Positions 3,066 through 15,521 of a stretch of 44,899 nucleotides of DNA are shown in pieces. The stretch is from contig JACQWY010000057.1 of assembly GCA_016209015.1 (NCBI GenBank), positions 1 through 44,899 of the forward strand. Reading direction: 5' to 3'. Both the position numbers and the translations under genes were made by a program. Numbering within the stretch: the first letter of the stretch is position 1; each line of letters begins with the position of its first letter. The notes beneath the pieces were generated by a model. It saw nothing but the letters and a program-made list of their open reading frames with translations. It was not told the DNA's origin and searched no databases. Source of the stretch: Gammaproteobacteria bacterium (GTDB lineage: Bacteria > Pseudomonadota > Gammaproteobacteria > Ga0077536).

Positions 3066-3228
3066 CCCGCCCGATCCGGGACGTCGCGCCCGCCGCCGCC
3101 GCCATCGCCCCATTTTGATCGCTCCTCCGCGGCGCCGGCACCAGGACGGCGCCTGTGGCGCCGTGGTTTCCCGAGGCTCCTGCGTCGTTTCCCAGCGCAT
3201 TCCGGGCCTCCGGCCGATTCCCGATCGC

Positions 3229-3244
3229 TGGCACACGGCTTGCT
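3229..3244 (+). promoter_or_regulatory. Sigma-54 (RpoN) promoter of the ABC importer/ligase operon
   Basis: TGGCAC-ACGGC-TTGCT matches the -24/-12 consensus TGGCAC-N5-TTGCA/T at every conserved position. The GG (3230-3231) and GC (3242-3243) dinucleotides have the obligatory 10-base separation. Transcription would start near 3255, leaving a leader of about 38 bases before the ATG at 3293. Sigma-54 dependence fits an operon for nitrogen acquisition. An enhancer-binding activator must exist, but it is not encoded in this window. Confidence 0.75.
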
Positions 3245-3248
3245 CTCA

Positions 3249-3280
3249 CGGTAATACGAATTCAGCTAACGGTATTACCG
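3249..3280. promoter_or_regulatory. NikR-type operator overlapping the transcription start
   Basis: CGGTAATAC (3249-3257) and GTATTACCG (3272-3280) form a perfect 9-bp inverted repeat with a 14-base spacer. The inner 28 bp, GTAATAC-N14-GTATTAC, have the same length and outline as the E. coli NikR operator GTATGAC-N14-GTCATAC. The site covers the expected sigma-54 start (about 3255) and touches the ribosome site GGAGGAG (3280-3286). A NikR-family protein is encoded by the last gene of the same operon, so negative autoregulation is the simplest reading. Confidence 0.75.
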
Positions 3281-3292
3281 GAGGAGATCGCG

Positions 3293-4267
3293 ATGAGGAA
3301 GACCCTGAAGCATGTCTACGGCGCCCTGGCCGGCATCCTGCTCGGCGGCAGTGCGCTGGGGGCGGCGGCCGAACCCTTGAAGATCGGTTACAGCGACTGG
3401 CCGGGCTGGGTCGCCTGGGAGGTCGCGATCCAGAAGGACTGGTTCAAGGAAGCCGGGGTCGAGGTGAAGTTCGAGTGGTTCGACTACGCCGCGTCCATGG
3501 ACGCCTTCGCCGCCGGCAAGCTCGATGCCGTCACGATGACGAACGGCGACGCGCTCGTGACCGGCTCGCACGGCGGCAAGAGCGTGATGATCCTCATCAA
3601 CGACTACAGCAACGGCAACGACATGATCGTCGCGAAGCCCGGCTTCGACGACGTGAAGTCCCTGCGGGGCAAGAAGGTCGGCGTCGAGGTCGGCCTCGTC
3701 GATCACCTGCTGCTGCTGCAGGCCCTGAAGGACAACGGTCTGTCCGAATCCGACGTCGAGCTCGTCAACACGCCCACGAACGAAACGCCGCAGGTCCTGG
3801 CCTCGGGCGACGTCGCCGCAATCGGCGCGTGGCAGCCGAACTCGGGTGTCGCGCTCAAGCTCGTCTCCGGCTCGAAGGCCATCTACACGAGCTCGAACAA
3901 GCCCGGCCTCATCTACGACGTGCTCGCGGTCGCGCCGGCCAGCCTCTCCGCGCACAAAGAGGAATGGAAGAAGATCGTGAAAGTCTGGTATCGCGTCGTC
4001 GACTTCTACTACGACCCGAAGACCCACGACGAAGCGATCAGGATCATGGCCTCGCGCGTCGGCGTGAAACCGGAGGAATACGCGGCGTTCGCGGGCGGCA
4101 CGAAGATCCTGAAGTTCGACGAGGCGAAGAAGGTCTATACGAAGGGACCCGGTCTCGATTCCGTCTACGGCTCCTCGCAGGTCTCCGACGACTTCAACGT
4201 CGCGAACAAGGTCTACGCCGAGCCGCAGAAGGTCGACGGTTACATCGATCCTTCCTACATGCCCTGA
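3293..4267 (+). CDS. ABC importer substrate-binding protein (urea-carboxylase-region/NMT1-like)
   Basis: 324 residues from the ATG preceded by GGAGGAG; an upstream in-frame extension is excluded because it would run through the promoter and operator. A signal peptide spans residues 1-23 (hydrophobic core [17 protein letters not shown]). The mature part starts [17 protein letters not shown] and continues in the style of periplasmic binding proteins of nitrate, taurine and thiamine-precursor transporters. It most resembles the subfamily found beside urea carboxylase/guanidine utilisation genes (TIGR03427-like, from memory). The ligand is therefore likely a small nitrogen compound, but it cannot be read from sequence. 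First gene of a five-gene operon; 24 bases separate it from the permease. No urea carboxylase or allophanate hydrolase is present in the window. Confidence 0.85.
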
Positions 4268-4291: not shown

Positions 4292-5254
4292 ATGGCGACG
4301 TATTCAGGACCCCTCGGCCGCGGCGTCACGCCGCGGGCCCGCTTCGCCCTCGGCGTCGCGAGCTTCCTGCTGCCGCTCGGTCTGTGGTGTCTCGTGAGCT
4401 ACGTGCCCTTCGTGTGGCATCCGCTCGTCGAGGTCACCGTGCCGGGCGGGGTGTCCTATTTCGAGGAAGGCATGCTCGTCGAGCACGCTGTGTTCGAGAA
4501 GGAGCGCGATACGGTGGCCGAGGCCGGTCAGCCCGTGCCCGCCGGCGTGCCCGCGAACCCGGTCTATCTGCCGGCGCCGCATCAGGTCGCGAGCGCGTTC
4601 TACACCGCGTTCACGACGAAGCCGCTCAGGCGTGACGAGAAGTGGCTGCACGAGAGTCTCTGGACGAGCATCCAGGTGATCTTCTGGGGCTTCGTGCTGT
4701 CCTCGGCTTTCGGTGTGCCGCTCGGCATCCTCGCCGGCAGCTATCTCACGGTCTCGAAGCTCACCGAGCCGTTCATCGAGTTCTTCCGCTATCTGCCGGC
4801 GCCCGCCTTCGGCGCGCTCGCGGTCGCGATCCTCGGCATCTACGAGGCGCCGAAGATCGCCATCATCTTCATCGGCACGTTCTTCCAGCAGGTGCTCGTC
4901 ATCGCGAACACGACACGGAAGATCGATCCGACGCTGCTGGAGGCGGCCGTGACGCTCGGCGCGAAGCGCGTGAGCCTGCTCTTCAAAGTCGTGATCCCCG
5001 GGGTCGTCACGCATCTCTATCTCGACATGCGCATCCTGCTCGGCTGGGCCTGGACCTACCTCATCGTCGCCGAGCTCATCGGCACGAGCACGGGCATCAC
5101 CTGGTTCATCACCCAGCAGGCGCGCTACAAGAACTTCGCGAACGTCTACGCCGCGATCATCATGATCGGCATCCTCGGCCTGACCACGGATCTCTTCCTG
5201 GGCTGGCTCGGCGCGCGGATCTTCCCCTGGGAGCGGCATCGCCGCCGCGCCTGA
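4292..5254 (+). CDS. ABC transporter permease (SsuC/TauC/NrtB-like)
   Basis: 320 residues, longer than the common 250-280 of this family because of an inserted periplasmic stretch of about 80 residues between the first membrane helix (about 17-38) and the conserved transport core, which starts near residue 110. The core has five or so membrane segments and the EAA loop that contacts the ATPase ([21 protein letters not shown] region, around residue 217). Such permeases homodimerise in the inner membrane. It sits between the binding protein and the ATPase gene with short gaps (24 and 22 bases), so the three form one importer. Confidence 0.9.
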
Positions 5255-5276: not shown

Positions 5277-6200
5277 ATGAACCAGATGAACCGTATCGCC
5301 CTGCCGAGCCATCTCGATCAGTCGGAAGCCGTGCGCGACCGTTTCGGGAGACTGAAGAAGCGGCCCGTCATCCTCGACGTGCAGAGCCTGCAGAAAGAGT
5401 TCGAATCGAATGCCGGCCGCACGGTCGCGCTGCAGAACATCAGCTTCCAGACGCACCGCCGCGAGTTCCTGTGCGTGATCGGGCCGTCGGGCTGCGGCAA
5501 GTCGACGCTCATCCGCATCCTCGCCGGCCTCGAACCCCAGACCGGCGGGCAGGTGCTGATCGACGGGAAGCCGGTGAACGGTCCGGGCCGTGACCGCGGC
5601 ATGGTGTTCCAGGGCTACAGCCTCTTTCCGTGGCGGACGGTCAAGAAGAACGTGATGTTCGGTCTCGAGATGTCCGGCAAGGAAGGCTCGGTCGCGGAAT
5701 CCGAAGCGCTGCAGTGGATCGATCTCGTCGGGCTCTCGAAGTTCGCGAACTCCTATCCCCACGAGCTCTCCGGCGGCATGAAGCAGCGCGTGGCGATCGC
5801 GCGCGCGCTCGCGAACCAGCCGCGGATCCTGCTCATGGACGAGCCGTTCGGCGCGCTCGATGCACAGACGCGCTCGAAGATGCAGCAGCACCTGCTCGAG
5901 ATCTGGAAGAACATCGACATCACGGTCGTCTTCATCACCCACGATCTCGACGAAGCGATCTACCTCGCCGACCGCATCCTCGTCCTGAAAGCGCATCCCG
6001 GCGAGATCCAGGAGCTCATCGAAGTGCCGGTGCCGCAGCCGCGCAGCCCGGATCAGTTCCTGAGCCCCGAATACCTGGCCACGAAGATGCGTCTCGAGCA
6101 GCTCATCCACCCGCCCGAAGAGGGCGTCGAGGTCAATGGCGACCACCTGAACATGATGCGCATGGTCCATGTCGACGACGCGGTCAGCGACGTGATGTAG
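5277..6200 (+). CDS. ABC transporter ATP-binding protein (SsuB/TauB/NrtD-like)
   Basis: 307 residues with all motifs of an active ATPase: Walker [10 protein letters not shown] (69-77), Q-loop FQG (111-113), signature LSGGMKQ (164-170), Walker B ILLMDEP (184-190), D-loop and switch His222 (THD). It energises the adjacent permease. The C-terminal tail of about 60 residues is longer than in minimal SsuB proteins and ends in an acidic, Met-rich stretch of unknown role. An internal ATG three codons later could serve as the start. The gene is followed after 44 bases by the ligase gene, with a good ribosome site (CGAGGAG) in that gap. Confidence 0.92.
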
Positions 6201-6244: not shown

Positions 6245-7606
6245 ATGAAATCAGCAGCCGAAATCCGTCAGATTCAGGCCGACCTGAAAGCCAAAGGCGT
6301 GAAATACTGCCTCGGCGCCTATGTCGACATCCATGGCCTGCCGAAGGGCAAGTTCGTGCCCATCGATCACCTGCCGCACATGGCCGAGGGCTCCGAGCTC
6401 TATACCGGCTACGCGCTCGACGGCCTCGGCCAGGCGCCGAACGACGACGAGATCGCGTCCGTTCCGGATCTCGATCACATCGTCCAGTTGCCGTGGCGGC
6501 CCGAAGTCGCCTGGATGCCGGCGGACAACACGTTCAAGGGCGAACCGTATGCGCTCAACACGCGCGTCGCGTTGAAGCGCGTCCTCGCCGAGGCCGAAGC
6601 CATGGGCTTCGGCTTCAATCTCGGCATCGAGTGCGAGGTCTTCGTGCTGAAGCAGAACGCGGACGGCAGCCTGAGCATCCCGAACCCGGACGACAAGCTC
6701 GTCAAGCCCTGCTACGACGTGCGCGGCTTCCTCGATCAATTCACCTGGCTCGACAAGGTCGCGACCTGCATCAACGACCTCGGCTGGGATCTCTATTCCC
6801 TCGATCACGAGGATGCGAACGGCCAGTTCGAGTTCGATTTCAAGTATGCCGACGCGCTCACGATGTGCGATCGCTTCGTGTTCTTCCGCTACATGGCGAA
6901 GGAGTACGCGAAGCAGGAAGGCCTGCTCGCGACGTTCATGCCGAAGCCGTTCGCGAACCGCACGGGCAACGGCGCGCACTTCAACATGTCGCTGTCCGAC
7001 AGGAAGACGGGCAGGAACGTCTTCGCCTGCGATCCGAAGGACGATCCGCGCGGCCTGGGCCTGACAGAGGTCGGCTATCACTTCATCGGGGGGATTCTGA
7101 AGCACGGCAAGGCGCTGTGCGCCGCTTATTCGCCGACGGTCAACAGCTACAAGCGCCTCGTGCGCCAGGGCGCGATGGCGACGTTCTCCTGGGCGCCGGT
7201 CTTCAATTCGTTCGGCTCGAACAACCGCACGAACTCCATTCGCGTGCCGATGGGCGGCGGGCGCTGCGAATCGCGGAACGCCGACGGCGCGCTCAATCCC
7301 TATCTCGCCGCGACGCTCGCGCTCGCCGCGGGCCTGGAAGGCGTGCGCGAGAAGATCGACCCCGGCCAGCCGCAGGAAGACAACCTCTACGAGCTCGGTG
7401 ACGCGGAGCGCCTGAAGCGGGGCATCGATTTCCTGCCGCAGAATCTCGCCGACGCCGTCGAAGCGTTCGCGGCCGATCCCTTCGTCGAGAAGACTTTGGG
7501 CCGTGCGCTTCGCGACGAGTTCATCAAGTACAAGACCGAGGAATGGCAGGCTTATCACCTGAGCGTCTCGGCCTGGGAGATCGAGCGCTACAGCCATCTC
7601 TTCTGA
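6245..7606 (+). CDS. glnT: Type III glutamine synthetase-like ligase (GlnT/GmaS family)
   Basis: 453 residues. The glutamine synthetase fold is clear: metal-binding Glu residues in IECE (128-131), HED (188-190) and FEF (195-197), NGAHFNM (242-248, His245 glutamate-binding), and the phosphoryl-contacting RCESR (340-344). NLYEL (380-384) aligns with the adenylylation loop of type I enzymes, keeping Tyr382. It belongs to the short GlnT/type III branch, which includes rhizobial GlnT and gamma-glutamylmethylamide synthetase. The enzyme therefore joins glutamate to ammonia or to a small amine. N-methylglutamate synthase genes are absent, so methylamine metabolism is not shown. Its place in an ABC importer operon suggests it processes the imported compound or the ammonia released from it. 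Symbol tentative. Confidence 0.85.
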
Positions 7607-7613
7607 GCGGCCG

Positions 7614-8066
7614 ATGGTGGAAGCCTCGAAGTCCGGCGTCCGGCGGATCAGCGTCTCGCTGCCCGAGCCGCTGTGGCGGCAGTTCAATGCGATGCTCGAG
7701 GATCGCAACTGCCGCAACTGCTCGCAGGTGATCGCGGAGCTGATCAACGACAAGCTCGTCGAGCACGCCGTCGGCCTCGGCGACGAGGTGATGGCAGGTA
7801 CGATTACGCTCGTCTACGACAACTCGACCGGCCTGCAGAAACATCTCGCGGATCTGCAGTACGAGTTCATCGACGAGGTGATCAGCTCGCTGCACATCAA
7901 TCTGACGCAGCACCAGACGATGGAAGTCGTGCTCGTGCAGGGACCGGCACGGAAGCTCCAGTGCATCGCGGACAAGATGGGCGCGAACCGCGGCGTCATC
8001 ACCTGCAAGCTGCAGGTGACCACGGCGGTGATCCCGCCGATTCATCCGAAGCTCGAGAGGGATTGA
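7614..8066 (+). CDS. NikR-family ribbon-helix-helix repressor lacking the nickel site
   Basis: 150 residues. The N-terminal ribbon-helix-helix domain (about 10-52) begins RRISVSL; Arg11, Ser13 and Ser15 sit where E. coli NikR uses Arg3, Thr5 and Thr7 to read DNA. The C-terminal half (about 60-137) aligns with the ACT-like NikR regulatory domain (ITLVYDN, SSLHINL, MEVVLVQG, IADKMGANRGV). Of the four high-affinity nickel ligands (His76, His87, His89, Cys95 in E. coli) only one remains: Tyr83, His94, Asn96 and Thr102 occupy these positions. The effector is therefore probably not nickel. The gene starts 7 bases after the ligase stop, so it is the last gene of the operon, whose promoter carries a NikR-shaped operator. 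No strong ribosome site is seen, which suggests translational coupling. Confidence 0.82.
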   Translation: MVEASKSGVRRISVSLPEPLWRQFNAMLEDRNCRNCSQVIAELINDKLVEHAVGLGDEVMAGTITLVYDNSTGLQKHLADLQYEFIDEVISSLHINLTQHQTMEVVLVQGPARKLQCIADKMGANRGVITCKLQVTTAVIPPIHPKLERD

Positions 8067-8194: not shown

Positions 8195-9721
8195 ATGACG
8201 GAACGACGCCCACATCCGGGCCGGGTCTTGATCGTTGGAGGCGGCACTGCAGGCTGGATGGCCGCCATTTCTCTCGCCATGGCATGGATCCCGCTCGGCG
8301 CGGAAATCACGCTGCTCGAATCCGATGCCATCGGCATCATCGGCGTCGGCGAGGGCTCGACCCCGAAGATGCGCCGCTTCATGCAGAAGCTGGGCGTCGC
8401 GGAGCACGAGTGGATGCCTTCCTGCAACGGCACCTACAAATGCGGCATTCGCTTTCCGGCCTGGTCGACGCGGCCCGGCTACGAGAGCTACTACCATCCC
8501 TTCTTCTCGCCGAGCGACGATCCCTTCATCCGCGCGTTCCACCAGAACATGACGCTGCGTCAGCGCAATCTCGACGTGCACGCGCTGCCCGACACGTTCT
8601 TCCTCTCGAACTATCTCGCGAAGCACTCGCGCGCGCCGCTCGGCGACGGGACGCTCGATCATCAGACGGACTACGCCTATCACTTCGACGCGCGGCTGAT
8701 CGGCGAATACCTCCGCAAGCGTTCGATCGAGCTCGGCGTGCGCCATCTCGTCGACACCGTGACGGGCGTGCGGCAGTCGGAGTCCGGCGCGATCCTGGGT
8801 GTCGACACCCAGCGCGGCGGATTCGTCGAAGCGGATTTCTTCCTGGACTGCTCCGGCTTCGCGAGCGTGCTCATCTGCGGCGCGCTGCGTGTACCGTTCA
8901 TGCCGTACAAGGATTTCCTGTTCAACGACGCGGCCGTCGCGATGCCGACGCCGCATCCGGACGCGACGACGCTGCGCTCGGAGACGCTTTCCAGCGCGCT
9001 CAAGTACGGCTGGGTGTGGAAGATCCCGCTGACGAACCGCCTGGGCAATGGCTACGTGTATTCCTCGGACTACATCGATGCCGCGACGGCGGAGCAGGAA
9101 CTGCGCCAGCATCTGAAGCTGCCGGAGTCGGATACGACCGAGGCGCGGCATCTCAAGATGCGCGTCGGGCGGCTGAATCATTGCTGGGAGTCGAACTGTC
9201 TCGCGATCGGTCTCGCGCAGGGCTTCATCGAACCGCTCGAAGCGACGGCGCTCATGATCGTGCAGGACACGGTCGAGCACTTCATCGAGCTCTATGCCAG
9301 GGGCGGCTTCACGCCCGAGCATCGCGACGCCTACAACGAGAAGATCAACCGCATCTACGACAGCGTCAGAGACTACGTCTACATGCATTACAAGCTGAAC
9401 TCGCGACGCGACACCGACTACTGGGTCAACGCGCGCGAGAATCGCCATGTCTCCGATTCTGTCGCGGCGATCCTCGAGGTCTGGGACAACGGCGGCGATC
9501 TGCTCGGCGAAATCGTGCGACAGCGCGATTACATGAGTTACAGCCCGACGTCGTGGTTCTGCATCCTCTCCGGCATGGCGCGCTTCCCGAAGCAGCCGCG
9601 CAAACCGCGCCGCGACATTCCGGTCATCGACCCGGCCGGCCCGCGCAAGGCCTGTATGGAGATGCTGGAACACTATCCCGATCACCGCAGCGTCGTGATG
9701 GCGATGCAGCCGGCGCATTGA
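8195..9721 (+). CDS. Flavin-dependent tryptophan halogenase-like protein
   Basis: 508 residues, the usual length of the tryptophan halogenase family. It has the FAD-binding motif GGGTAGW (15-21), IGVGEGSTP (49-57), the halogenase-specific WVWKIP (273-278), Lys82 in NGTYK (equivalent to the catalytic Lys79 of PrnA) and Glu349 in EPLEAT (equivalent to Glu346). Such enzymes use reduced flavin, oxygen and halide to form hypohalous acid, passed to the lysine. All key residues are intact, so the gene is probably functional. No peptide synthetase, flavin reductase or TonB receptor gene lies nearby in the window, so the substrate is unknown; many environmental members act on free indoles or remain unassigned. 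Strong ribosome site GAGGAGGG precedes the ATG. Confidence 0.9.
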   Translation: MTERRPHPGRVLIVGGGTAGWMAAISLAMAWIPLGAEITLLESDAIGIIGVGEGSTPKMRRFMQKLGVAEHEWMPSCNGTYKCGIRFPAWSTRPGYESYYHPFFSPSDDPFIRAFHQNMTLRQRNLDVHALPDTFFLSNYLAKHSRAPLGDGTLDHQTDYAYHFDARLIGEYLRKRSIELGVRHLVDTVTGVRQSESGAILGVDTQRGGFVEADFFLDCSGFASVLICGALRVPFMPYKDFLFNDAAVAMPTPHPDATTLRSETLSSALKYGWVWKIPLTNRLGNGYVYSSDYIDAATAEQELRQHLKLPESDTTEARHLKMRVGRLNHCWESNCLAIGLAQGFIEPLEATALMIVQDTVEHFIELYARGGFTPEHRDAYNEKINRIYDSVRDYVYMHYKLNSRRDTDYWVNARENRHVSDSVAAILEVWDNGGDLLGEIVRQRDYMSYSPTSWFCILSGMARFPKQPRKPRRDIPVIDPAGPRKACMEMLEHYPDHRSVVMAMQPAH

Positions 9722-11512: not shown

Positions 11513-12670
11513 ATGAAGCTCGAGGGCGTGAAGGTCGTCGATTTCTCCATGTTCCTGCCGGGACCGCATTTCACGATGATGATGGCCGACCACGGCGCCG
11601 AGGTGATCCGCATCGAGCCCATGGGCGGCGAGCCGGCGCGCGCGCTGGGTCTCAAGCAGGGCGAGCACACGGTGTGGTTCCGCAACACGCATCGCGGCAA
11701 GCAGAGCGTGCGCCTGAACCTGAAGGATCCGCGCGGCCTCGAGTTCGCGATGAAGCTGCTCGAGGACGCCGACGTGCTCGTCGAGGGCTTCCGTCCCGGG
11801 GTGATGGAACGCCTCGGTCTCGGCTACGAAGCAGTGCGCGCACGCGCGCCGCAGGTCGTCTACGTCTCGCTGTCGGCCTTCGGGCAGACCGGGCGTTATC
11901 GTTTGAAGCCCGCGCACGACATGGTGATGCAGGCGATGCTCGGCGTGCTGAGCTTCAACCTCGGCCGCGACGGCAAGCCGGCGAACCCCCACATGCCGGT
12001 CGCCGACATGTGCGGCTCGCTGACGGCGTTCGCGGGCGTGCTGATGGCGCTCTTCCGTCAGCGTCAGACCGGGCAGGGCGATTACCTCGACATCTCCATG
12101 CACGATTCCGTGCTCGCCTGGACCGCGAACTACCAGGGCCCGGTGATGGCCGAGCATCGCGCGCACGACGTGAAGCAGGAGCGCAACTGGGGCGGTGCCG
12201 CGTTCTACAACATCTACGAGACGAAGGATCGTCAATGGATGGTGCTCGGCGGCGTCGAGCACACGTTCTGCGAAAATTTTCTGAACAAGGCCGGCCGCCC
12301 GGATCTCATTCCGCCTTGTCACCAGCCGCCGGGCCCGGTGCAGGAGCCGGTGAAGGTTTTCCTCGCCGAGTTCTTCGGCGCGCGCACGCAGGCCGAGGCG
12401 CTGGCCTGGCTCGAAGGCCTCGACGTCTGCTACGCGCCGTTGCGCACGCTGCTCGAAGGCGTGTTCGATCCGAACACCGCCGAGCGCGGCATGCTGATCA
12501 CGGACGAGGCCGGCTGCCATCACCTCGGCATCCCGATCAAGTACACGCGCGAACCGGGCCGCGTCGACACGCACGTGCCGGCGCTCGGCGAGCACTCGAA
12601 GCAGGTCGCCGCGCGCCTCGGTTATTCGGCGGAGCGGATCGCGGAGCTCGAGCGCGACAAGGTGATTTGA
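11513..12670 (+). CDS. CaiB/BaiF family III CoA-transferase
   Basis: 385 residues, start chosen at the ATG 8 bases after GAGGA; an ORF extension to 11447 crosses the poly-T promoter region. Family III features: N-terminal LEGVKVVDFSMFLPGPH, the nucleotide-like CoA loop, RNTHRGKQSVRLNLK (CoA-binding), and PVADMCGS, in which Asp166 is the expected catalytic aspartate. Enzymes of this family move CoA between acids (carnitine, bile acids, oxalate, 2-methylacyl racemases). The gene is divergent from the SCP2/hydrolase unit and shares its duplicated promoter, so the three proteins likely activate or process the same hydrophobic acid. Transcription runs toward the second REP-like palindrome. Confidence 0.9.
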   Translation: MKLEGVKVVDFSMFLPGPHFTMMMADHGAEVIRIEPMGGEPARALGLKQGEHTVWFRNTHRGKQSVRLNLKDPRGLEFAMKLLEDADVLVEGFRPGVMERLGLGYEAVRARAPQVVYVSLSAFGQTGRYRLKPAHDMVMQAMLGVLSFNLGRDGKPANPHMPVADMCGSLTAFAGVLMALFRQRQTGQGDYLDISMHDSVLAWTANYQGPVMAEHRAHDVKQERNWGGAAFYNIYETKDRQWMVLGGVEHTFCENFLNKAGRPDLIPPCHQPPGPVQEPVKVFLAEFFGARTQAEALAWLEGLDVCYAPLRTLLEGVFDPNTAERGMLITDEAGCHHLGIPIKYTREPGRVDTHVPALGEHSKQVAARLGYSAERIAELERDKVI

Positions 12671-12715
12671 TTGCGCGCAATGAATTCGTAGGTCCGTATG
12701 GCGGACGAGGGAATT

Positions 12716-12791
12716 GGGGTCAGGTTCGATTTCGCGGCCGACGCGAGCGACCCATGTCCGGGCGCTGATCCGCGAATTCGAACCTGACCCC
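12716..12791. repeat. 76-bp REP-like palindrome, copy B
   Basis: Arms of 22 bases (12716-12737 and 12770-12791) with one mismatch enclose 32 bases. It starts 45 bases after the CoA-transferase stop. The arms and about half of the inner sequence are the reverse complement of copy A (9765-9840), while the outer flanks agree in direct orientation. The 384-bp gap 12671-13054 otherwise holds only the small reading frame at 12894-12992. Confidence 0.8.
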
Positions 12792-12893
12792 AATTCCCGC
12801 CGGCGCCGCGCTTCTTTCACGGCAGCCTGCCGGGCGATGGATGCATCGCGTGCCCGCTTCGCGCCGGCGCGCACCAACAGGGAGCAGGGCTCG

Positions 12894-12992
12894 ATGTCGA
12901 CCTCGGAAATCTTCCTCGTCGCGATGACGATCATCCTCGCGCTCCCCTATCCCGAGATCTCCTCGGTCGAGGCTCTGCAAGGCGGGCTATGA
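12894..12992 (+). pseudogene. Possible N-terminal remnant of a Kef-type antiporter gene
   Basis: A 32-codon frame with a fair ribosome site (GGGAGCAGGG) encodes MSTSEIFLVAMTIILALPY, which recalls the first residues of Kef-type cation:proton antiporters, where a membrane helix follows. After residue 19 the resemblance stops and the frame soon ends. It could be a decayed gene start left by a deletion, or a real small membrane protein. The identification is from memory of the family and is weak. Confidence 0.3.
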
Positions 12993-15407: not shown

Positions 15408-15521
15408 ATGGCGGCCGTGTCGGTCCCCTCGCGACGTAAGGTTGTGAACCCCGTCAGGCCCGGAAGGGAGCAGCGGTAACGACGACTGCGGGCGCCGAGG
15501 TGTGGCTGGCAGGGCCGCCTC
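15408..15521 (+). ncRNA. ffs: 4.5S signal recognition particle RNA
   Basis: The conserved apical domain is unmistakable: GTCAGGCCCGGAAGGGAGCAGC (shown in part) with the GGAA tetraloop and the asymmetric internal loop, and the 3' side GAGGTGTGGCTGGCAGGGCC. Ends are set by the closing helix GGCGGCC (15410-15416) with GGCCGCC (15513-15519). It is the short SRP RNA type without an Alu domain. It binds Ffh for co-translational membrane targeting. Location just before dnaX is conserved in gammaproteobacteria. End positions may be off by a few bases. Confidence 0.95.

Follow-up and report, generated by a model that had tools for sequence, protein, structure and literature searches.

The window, i.e., the whole stretch of DNA analysed here, is one complete contig of 44,899 bases from a gammaproteobacterial genome of 5.7 Mb. 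It contains a five-gene operon that encodes the three components of an ABC importer, a type III glutamine-synthetase-like ligase and, as its last product, a protein of the NikR family (Table 1). The substrate-binding protein scored 145.9 bits against TIGR03427, which is under the cut-off of 333.9. None of the operon proteins was identified as a nickel enzyme or a nickel transporter. Within the family of the window genome, the transport operon was found only in that genome itself (1 of 36 at an E-value of 1e-60), and the module is thus patchy there. A gene of the tryptophan-halogenase family (8195-9721) follows the operon on the same strand after 128 bp, with no visible link to the system, and a bacterial small signal recognition particle RNA was found at 15418-15514.

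Table 1. Genes and promoter features of the transport operon in the window.
Feature	Position	Strand	Basis or remark
Possible NtrC-type enhancer half-sites, GCAC-N7-GCGC	3138..3152	+	weak, one mismatch; 91 bp upstream of -24/-12
Sigma-54 -24/-12 promoter element, TGGCACACGGCTTGCT	3229..3244	+	exact; kept in relatives; rpoN in genome
Predicted operator for the NikR-like protein, CGGTAATAC-N14-GTATTACCG	3249..3280	.	core 3251-3278, over predicted start 3255
Ribosome-binding site GGAGGAG for ATG at 3293	3280..3286	+	read from sequence
Substrate-binding protein of the ABC transporter, related to the 'urea' (guanidine) binding protein that goes with the carboxylase	3293..4267	+	NMT1_2; TIGR03427
ABC transporter permease	4292..5254	+	BPD_transp_1
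ABC transporter ATPase	5277..6200	+	profile matches
Type III glutamine synthetase-like ligase	6245..7606	+	TIGR03105, 652.7 bits, cut-off 469.6
NikR-family regulator without nickel site	7614..8066	+	Y83, H94, N96, T102 at the ligand positions

The preliminary description of this DNA had assigned TGGCAC-N5-TTGCT to the RpoN consensus, and the element indeed has zero mismatches to it. Matches with two mismatches to the sigma-54 consensus are common by chance (5 seen in the window vs. 7.1 expected), which leaves the exact match and its conservation as the evidence that matters. The transcription start predicted from this element, counted from C3243 at -12, falls within the repeat GTAATAC-N14-GTATTAC. 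This repeat is matched without mismatch at 3251-3278, is the sole match in the window at up to three mismatches (0.05 expected) and occurs as an exact copy only once in the 5.7-Mb genome, where the next best sites have two mismatches. Its arms can be extended to 9 bp (CGGTAATAC/GTATTACCG). The positions in Table 1 agree with the earlier statement that the repeat begins in the predicted start region and ends at the ribosome-binding site. The repeat had also been described as a perfect inverted repeat of 28 bp, which is exact for the window, but the inversion is not essential. The half-site GTAWTAC is a palindrome by itself, so a pair may be inverted or direct, and the relatives have the variants GTATTAC..GTAATAC, GTAATAC..GTAATAC and GTATTAC..GTATTAC, all with a spacer of 14. 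No guanidine riboswitch was found in the window at the gathering score.

The protein of the last gene contains the NikR C-terminal domain NikR_C (PF08753, 79.8 bits vs. a cut-off of 22), and its residues 11-137 matched the structure 2bj1 (1.1e-28). With this domain and an N-terminal ribbon-helix-helix, it belongs by fold to the NikR family. In an AlphaFold model built from 8 sequences (mean pLDDT of 71.8, ~90 in the C-domain and low confidence in the N-terminal part), the predicted C-domain fits NikR C-domain structures at 0.8-1.8 Angstrom, with a full-length rmsd of ~10 Angstrom; the model adds only this predicted fold. Five NikR models of NCBIfam were matched, all of them under their cut-offs, and the nearest miss was to NF003381 (nickel-responsive NikR), where the score of 104.5 fell short of 105 by 0.5 bits. 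The nickel ligands of E. coli NikR are given in the excerpted text of one source as His76, His87, His89 and Cys95 (PMC7055735). At the corresponding positions, the window protein keeps one of the four ligands (Table 1).

This loss is general among the relatives of the window protein, which were collected by protein search independently of gene context. In the alignment, the full HHHC set was found in 0 of 28 NikR-like proteins vs. 20 of 20 other NikRs; the nickel-binding cysteine was absent from all 28, and the three histidines were kept in 3 of the 28. In the tree, a branch with a support of 100/99 separates the 28 NikR-like proteins from the 20 other NikRs; L047 is a long branch whose placement is unsure. 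For the comparison group, 20 of 24 loci (L012-L035) were aligned, and L021 (partial), L026, L027 and L033 (no tblastn match at the cut-off applied) were left out. For the NikR-like clade, the search of the class yielded 29 genomes with matches, from which 5 were taken as clade members besides the window's own, the plasmid search contributed 6 of 28 records, and 7 of 7 loci of one search and 8 of 8 other genomes of another were used. At the position of Glu58, D or E was found in 26 of 28 clade members vs. 3 of 20 other NikRs; as a guess from the alignment, Glu58 may be a candidate pocket residue for contacting a cation such as guanidinium. The window protein is the only NikR_C match found in its genome and, since it lacks the nickel site, no nickel-responsive NikR was found in that genome. 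Given that this protein has the fold and the DNA code of NikR while the nickel ligands are lost, 'nickel-responsive NikR' would be the wrong name for it. Both the loss of the nickel site in this clade and the company that the clade keeps with guanidine metabolism, described below, go beyond the preliminary description.

The operator was surveyed in 27 loci including the window (444,979 bases) with the half-site GTRWYAC. At a spacer of 14, there were 12 exact pairs and 15 with one mismatch, vs. no exact pair and 0-2 one-mismatch pairs at each of the spacers 6-13 and 15-22. For 24 of these 27 sites, the start of a gene for a transporter, NikR-like protein, UAAP1 or carboxylase is at the site or follows within 400 bp, and one further site (L045, 6162) lies just before UAAP1; the remaining two, inside UAAP2 in L068 and away from the cluster in L066, are probably due to chance. 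L036 is cut off upstream and was left out of further locus counts. Among the 26 other loci, the cluster-promoter sites had at most one mismatch in 18, two in 7 and three in one. Only degenerate operators with 2-3 mismatches were found in L038, L041, L044 (first promoter) and L047, and operators with two mismatches in L059, L060, L062, L063 and L069. It should be noted that matches at up to two mismatches also occurred 19 times in the 243,654 bases of the control loci described below (~0.08 per kb); the weakest sites thus prove little singly, and a three-mismatch site has little weight.

The layout of these sites, with 7-bp half-sites, a spacing within the 13-14 bp of NikR-type operators and a position upstream of the putatively regulated genes, is that of NikR-type operators. 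The half-site centres are 21 bp apart, i.e., two helical turns, and the two ribbon-helix-helix dimers of the NikR tetramer bind sites two helical turns apart. The likeness to E. coli NikR sites in size and half-site, which had been pointed out for the window, is most direct in L059, where GTATGAC-N14-GTCATAC (8370-8397) lies upstream of the locus' own NikR-like gene, a clade member without the nickel site; it contains the E. coli operator GTATGA-N16-TCATAC as published, according to the excerpted text of the source (PMC7055735). An operator also precedes the NikR-like gene in L061, L064, L066, L067 and L068, and in L058 the NikR-like gene and the transporter genes diverge on either side of it. 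Four operators were found within one guanidine cluster in L045 (3338-3365, 3510-3537, 6162-6189 and 11814-11841), one of which precedes the gene of a second, more distant substrate-binding protein, and a Novosphingobium plasmid cluster (L065) has two NikR-like genes (9001-9408 and 12546-12953) with two one-mismatch operators nearby.

The controls consisted of 13 carboxylase loci from 12 genomes of the class without a NikR-like match at 1e-10, together with the window genome's own carboxylase locus, and covered 12.5-19 kb each (243,654 bases in total). In none of these 14 loci, which lack an adjacent NikR-like gene, did a cluster promoter have the operator at up to one mismatch. Two one-mismatch sites and no exact ones were found off the cluster promoters, one inside a permease gene (L128) and the other in a repetitive stretch ~2.8 kb upstream of transporter genes (L125); by the same measure, the 26 loci of the relatives had 26 sites in 400,080 bases. 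A narrower control that extended ~1.5 kb past each carboxylase gene yielded no one-mismatch site, although it could miss transporter promoters. The absence of the operator from cluster promoters that lack a NikR-like gene is consistent with the earlier proposal that the protein encoded at 7614-8066 is the reader of the site.

Upstream of the operator, the sigma-54 element is similarly conserved. Outside the Novosphingobium/Asticcacaulis branch, a label that rests on the tree and four named plasmid records, an element matching at least 9 of the 11 consensus positions was found 15-35 nt upstream of the operator in all 16 loci that include the promoter in front of the first transport gene, compared to a background of 0.13 elements per kb per strand at this threshold. 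The offset from the operator was -21 or -22 in 8 of the 16 loci; the offsets of L038, L041, L044 and L047 were measured from operators with 2-3 mismatches, and the element of L058 is without the GC at -12. At up to one mismatch, there are 26 operator-gene pairs. A strict sigma-54 element lies upstream in 15 of them, six without it belong to the Novosphingobium/Asticcacaulis branch, and the five others without it are L045 3338, L045 6162, L058 (strict rule, both genes) and L067 1845. The L059 operator before the NikR-like gene is also without such an element. In L067, UAAP1 is preceded by an operator, a sigma-54 element and a guanidine-I riboswitch in that order, all in a stretch of 160 bp (1845-2002), with the operator upstream of the -24 element rather than over the start. 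The GG at -24, the GC at -12, the conservation in orthologues outside one alphaproteobacterial branch and the presence of rpoN all point to sigma-54 promoters. The preliminary description had named a lack of conservation as grounds for refutation; this condition did not hold, as the operator and the -24/-12 element recur together upstream of orthologous operons.

In the nine loci of the Novosphingobium/Asticcacaulis branch, no sigma-54 element was found near the examined operators. Lack of rpoN was considered as a reason and rejected, as rpoN was present in all five branch genomes searched, and in one of three plasmid records. In this branch, the operator is retained while no sigma-54 site can be recognised, despite rpoN in five genomes.

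The regions upstream of the sigma-54 promoters were also inspected for GCAC-N7-GTGC, which we take to be the half-site layout of NtrC. Among the 15 promoters whose sigma-54 element matched strictly, this motif was found within the upstream 250 bp at up to one mismatch in 11 (vs. 14.6% of random 250-bp windows) and exactly in 4 (vs. 1.1%), and a spacer of 7 occurred in 11 regions vs. at most 4 at each of the spacers 3-6 and 8-11. A one-mismatch site was also found within 300 bp in 4 of 6 promoters of the Novosphingobium branch, which lack sigma-54 elements, so that much weight can be given solely to the exact matches and to the spacer-7 peak. As a set, the putative NtrC-like sites are supportive, while the window's own one-mismatch copy is a weak candidate. 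With the two promoter elements co-conserved, rpoN in the genome and NtrC-like sites enriched as a set, the comparison favours the earlier suggestion that sigma-54 activation may be combined with a NikR-type block placed across the transcription start.

In most relatives, the NikR-like gene is clustered with the genes for UAAP1, UAAP2, 'urea' carboxylase and, if the locus extends far enough, allophanate hydrolase, i.e., with those of the guanidine carboxylase pathway; none of these genes was found in the stretches covered by L036, L040, L042, L057 and L059. Guanidine-I or -II riboswitches were detected in 8 of the 26 relatives' loci (L037, L038, L039, L041, L045, L046, L058 and L067) and not in L036, L040, L042, L043, L044, L047, L057, L059, L060, L061, L062, L063, L064, L065, L066, L068, L069 or L070. 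In the window genome, the carboxylase operon is located on contig 56; it is preceded by a guanidine-I riboswitch (89.7 bits) and has no operator-like site at up to two mismatches. Across the sample of the class, the NikR-like protein was found in 7 of 274 genomes, one by a partial match (G048) that was used solely for this count; the carboxylase was found in all 7 and in 19 of the 274 overall (hypergeometric p of 2e-9). In 15 further genomes, the carboxylase was present in 14, in 12 at full length and in 2 in two pieces. The exception is G619 (L057), which has the transporter, the ligase, the NikR-like gene and the operator, yet only biotin-carboxylase paralogues; this genome, rated 100% complete, has no guanidine-I or -II riboswitch, and its module suggests that a nitrogen compound other than guanidine could be the substrate. 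A guanidine-I or -II riboswitch was found in 12 of 21 genomes and neither in 9, a count that covers these two classes and whose first pass scored part of the candidates in many genomes.

Other arrangements of these genes were also noticed. In L040 (5787-6554) and L046 (6021-6806), a creatininase-family gene, which is absent from the window's operon, separates the transporter genes from that of the type III ligase, and L041 has a protein of creatininase-like look. In L038 (10169-13766), the guanidine carboxylase is present as two overlapping pieces in different frames. The carboxylase cluster of L121 (1322-11431) has a more distant transporter and a type III ligase (54% identity) and neither a NikR-like gene nor an operator; the type III ligase thus accompanies guanidine genes also without the NikR-like regulator.

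Taken together, these observations are in our judgment probably best explained by a NikR-like repressor that is independent of nickel, controls its own synthesis and, in response to guanidine or a metabolite of the pathway, gates an operon for guanidine uptake under nitrogen control. The conserved operator and sigma-54 element, the pairing of the operator with NikR-like genes, the association with guanidine genes and the loss of the nickel ligands all emerge from comparison of sequences, and from them we infer binding, repression, the role of NtrC, the ligand and the transporter substrate. Under nitrogen shortage, the operon would be activated via sigma-54, probably by NtrC. The element at 3249-3280 would be bound as an operator by the operon's own last gene product, whose tetramer, with two ribbon-helix-helix dimers two helical turns apart, would cover approximately -4 to +24 and so block productive initiation. 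As the nickel site is missing from the clade, guanidine or a metabolite from its breakdown is the most likely signal for relieving (or setting) repression; guanidine or a derivative would bind the repressor and release it, and the importer and the regulator itself would then be made. The products would be a guanidine-type ABC importer and a glutamine-synthetase-like ligase, and the riboswitch on the distant carboxylase operon would answer the same compound. A broader proposal, that the whole clade consists of guanidine-sensing transcription factors whose single origin was a NikR ancestor that lost its nickel site, with the operator geometry of NikR retained and a coupling to sigma-54 promoters acquired, is put forward tentatively, at slightly less than an even chance.

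The most serious competitor accepts the operator and its regulator as a real pair and differs in the signal, which would be another transported nitrogen compound, such as one like creatinine or methylguanidine, or an internal one, such as glutamine. The module without carboxylase in G619, the creatininase-family genes amid transporter and ligase genes and the ligase within the operon itself would all suit such a signal, while the carboxylase in 14 of 15 further genomes and in 7 of 7 in the class, along with riboswitches in 8 of 26 clusters, speaks for guanidine; we regard this alternative as unlikely, yet as one to be taken seriously. That the operon is controlled by nickel through an ordinary NikR is very improbable. 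Its appeal lies in the fold and family membership of the protein, in the three histidines retained by 3 of 28 clade members and in the agreement of the operator with NikR sites in size and half-site, including the delta-proteobacterial consensus GTGTTAC-N13/14-GTAACAC that appears in the excerpted text of PMC545781. Against it are the missing cysteine in 28 of 28, the HHHC set in none of the clade vs. all 20 other NikRs, the single ligand left in the window protein, the lack of a named nickel enzyme or transporter in the operon and scores under all five NCBIfam NikR cut-offs (one by 0.5 bits), and this reading was rejected on the loss of the ligands.

The proposed guanidine-responsive NikR-like repressor also has to be set against two readings that dispense with it. 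A different regulator might read the site, the adjacent NikR-like gene being incidental; the half-site and spacing are those of NikR-family proteins, the operator stands between or before NikR-like genes in the six loci named above, and it is absent at up to one mismatch from the cluster promoters of the 14 carboxylase loci without such a gene, which leaves this reading with very little credence. Least credible of all is an RNA hairpin or terminator in the leader, rejected although the leader region does hold a perfect inverted repeat with arms of 9 bp and a loop of 14 nt: a start at 3255, as predicted, leaves most of the left arm untranscribed, the spacer keeps a length of 14 but varies in sequence, and the palindromic half-site is repeated directly in some copies.

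Each component is already known, be it the NikR fold, the NikR operator, the sigma-54 promoter or the guanidine riboswitch. The combination of these, and a NikR clade moved from nickel to guanidine genes, did not appear in the listed titles and abstract starts, by which no description of this regulator was found in the openly licensed literature. Guanidine is known so far to be sensed by RNA switches. In the excerpted texts, 'NikR' and 'CopG' do not occur in PMC12508155, nor 'NikR' and 'regulator' in PMC11410670, and a supplement legend mentions NikR in organisms not using nickel (PMC2667541, excerpt). The finding names a candidate family of protein guanidine sensors together with its operator and target genes, and in the window bacterium control by protein and by RNA is apparently split between two operons. 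If the proposal is true, a metal sensor has been turned into a small-molecule sensor with its DNA code kept, and a two-input gate operates at a sigma-54 promoter, such that uptake and breakdown need both nitrogen shortage and guanidine. The clade would then be the protein counterpart of the guanidine riboswitches and, in genomes without guanidine-I/II riboswitches, the sole guanidine sensor found.

Compared with known systems, the NikR proteins of E. coli, H. pylori, P. horikoshii and delta-proteobacteria share with this clade the ribbon-helix-helix and NikR_C domains, and the operator resembles theirs in its 28 bp with 7-bp half-sites 14 bp apart. In contrast to them, this clade is without the nickel site, and its apparent targets are guanidine-assimilation genes, mostly with sigma-54 elements, instead of nickel genes. 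The guanidine-I and -II riboswitches are found in the same gene clusters (8 of 26), some adjoining a NikR-like operator, and also on the carboxylase operon of the window genome; they are RNA sensors in the leader, whereas a protein-DNA switch at the promoter is predicted here. NtrC/sigma-54 operons, such as that of the 'urea' carboxylase of Burkholderia cenocepacia, share the -24/-12 element and candidate NtrC sites before transport genes; in an ntrC mutant of that species under nitrogen limitation, the 'urea' carboxylase gene changed by a log2 of -6.0 and the transport genes also fell, according to the excerpted text (PMC5491218). Different from such operons, the promoter described here has an additional NikR-like operator placed over the predicted start site.
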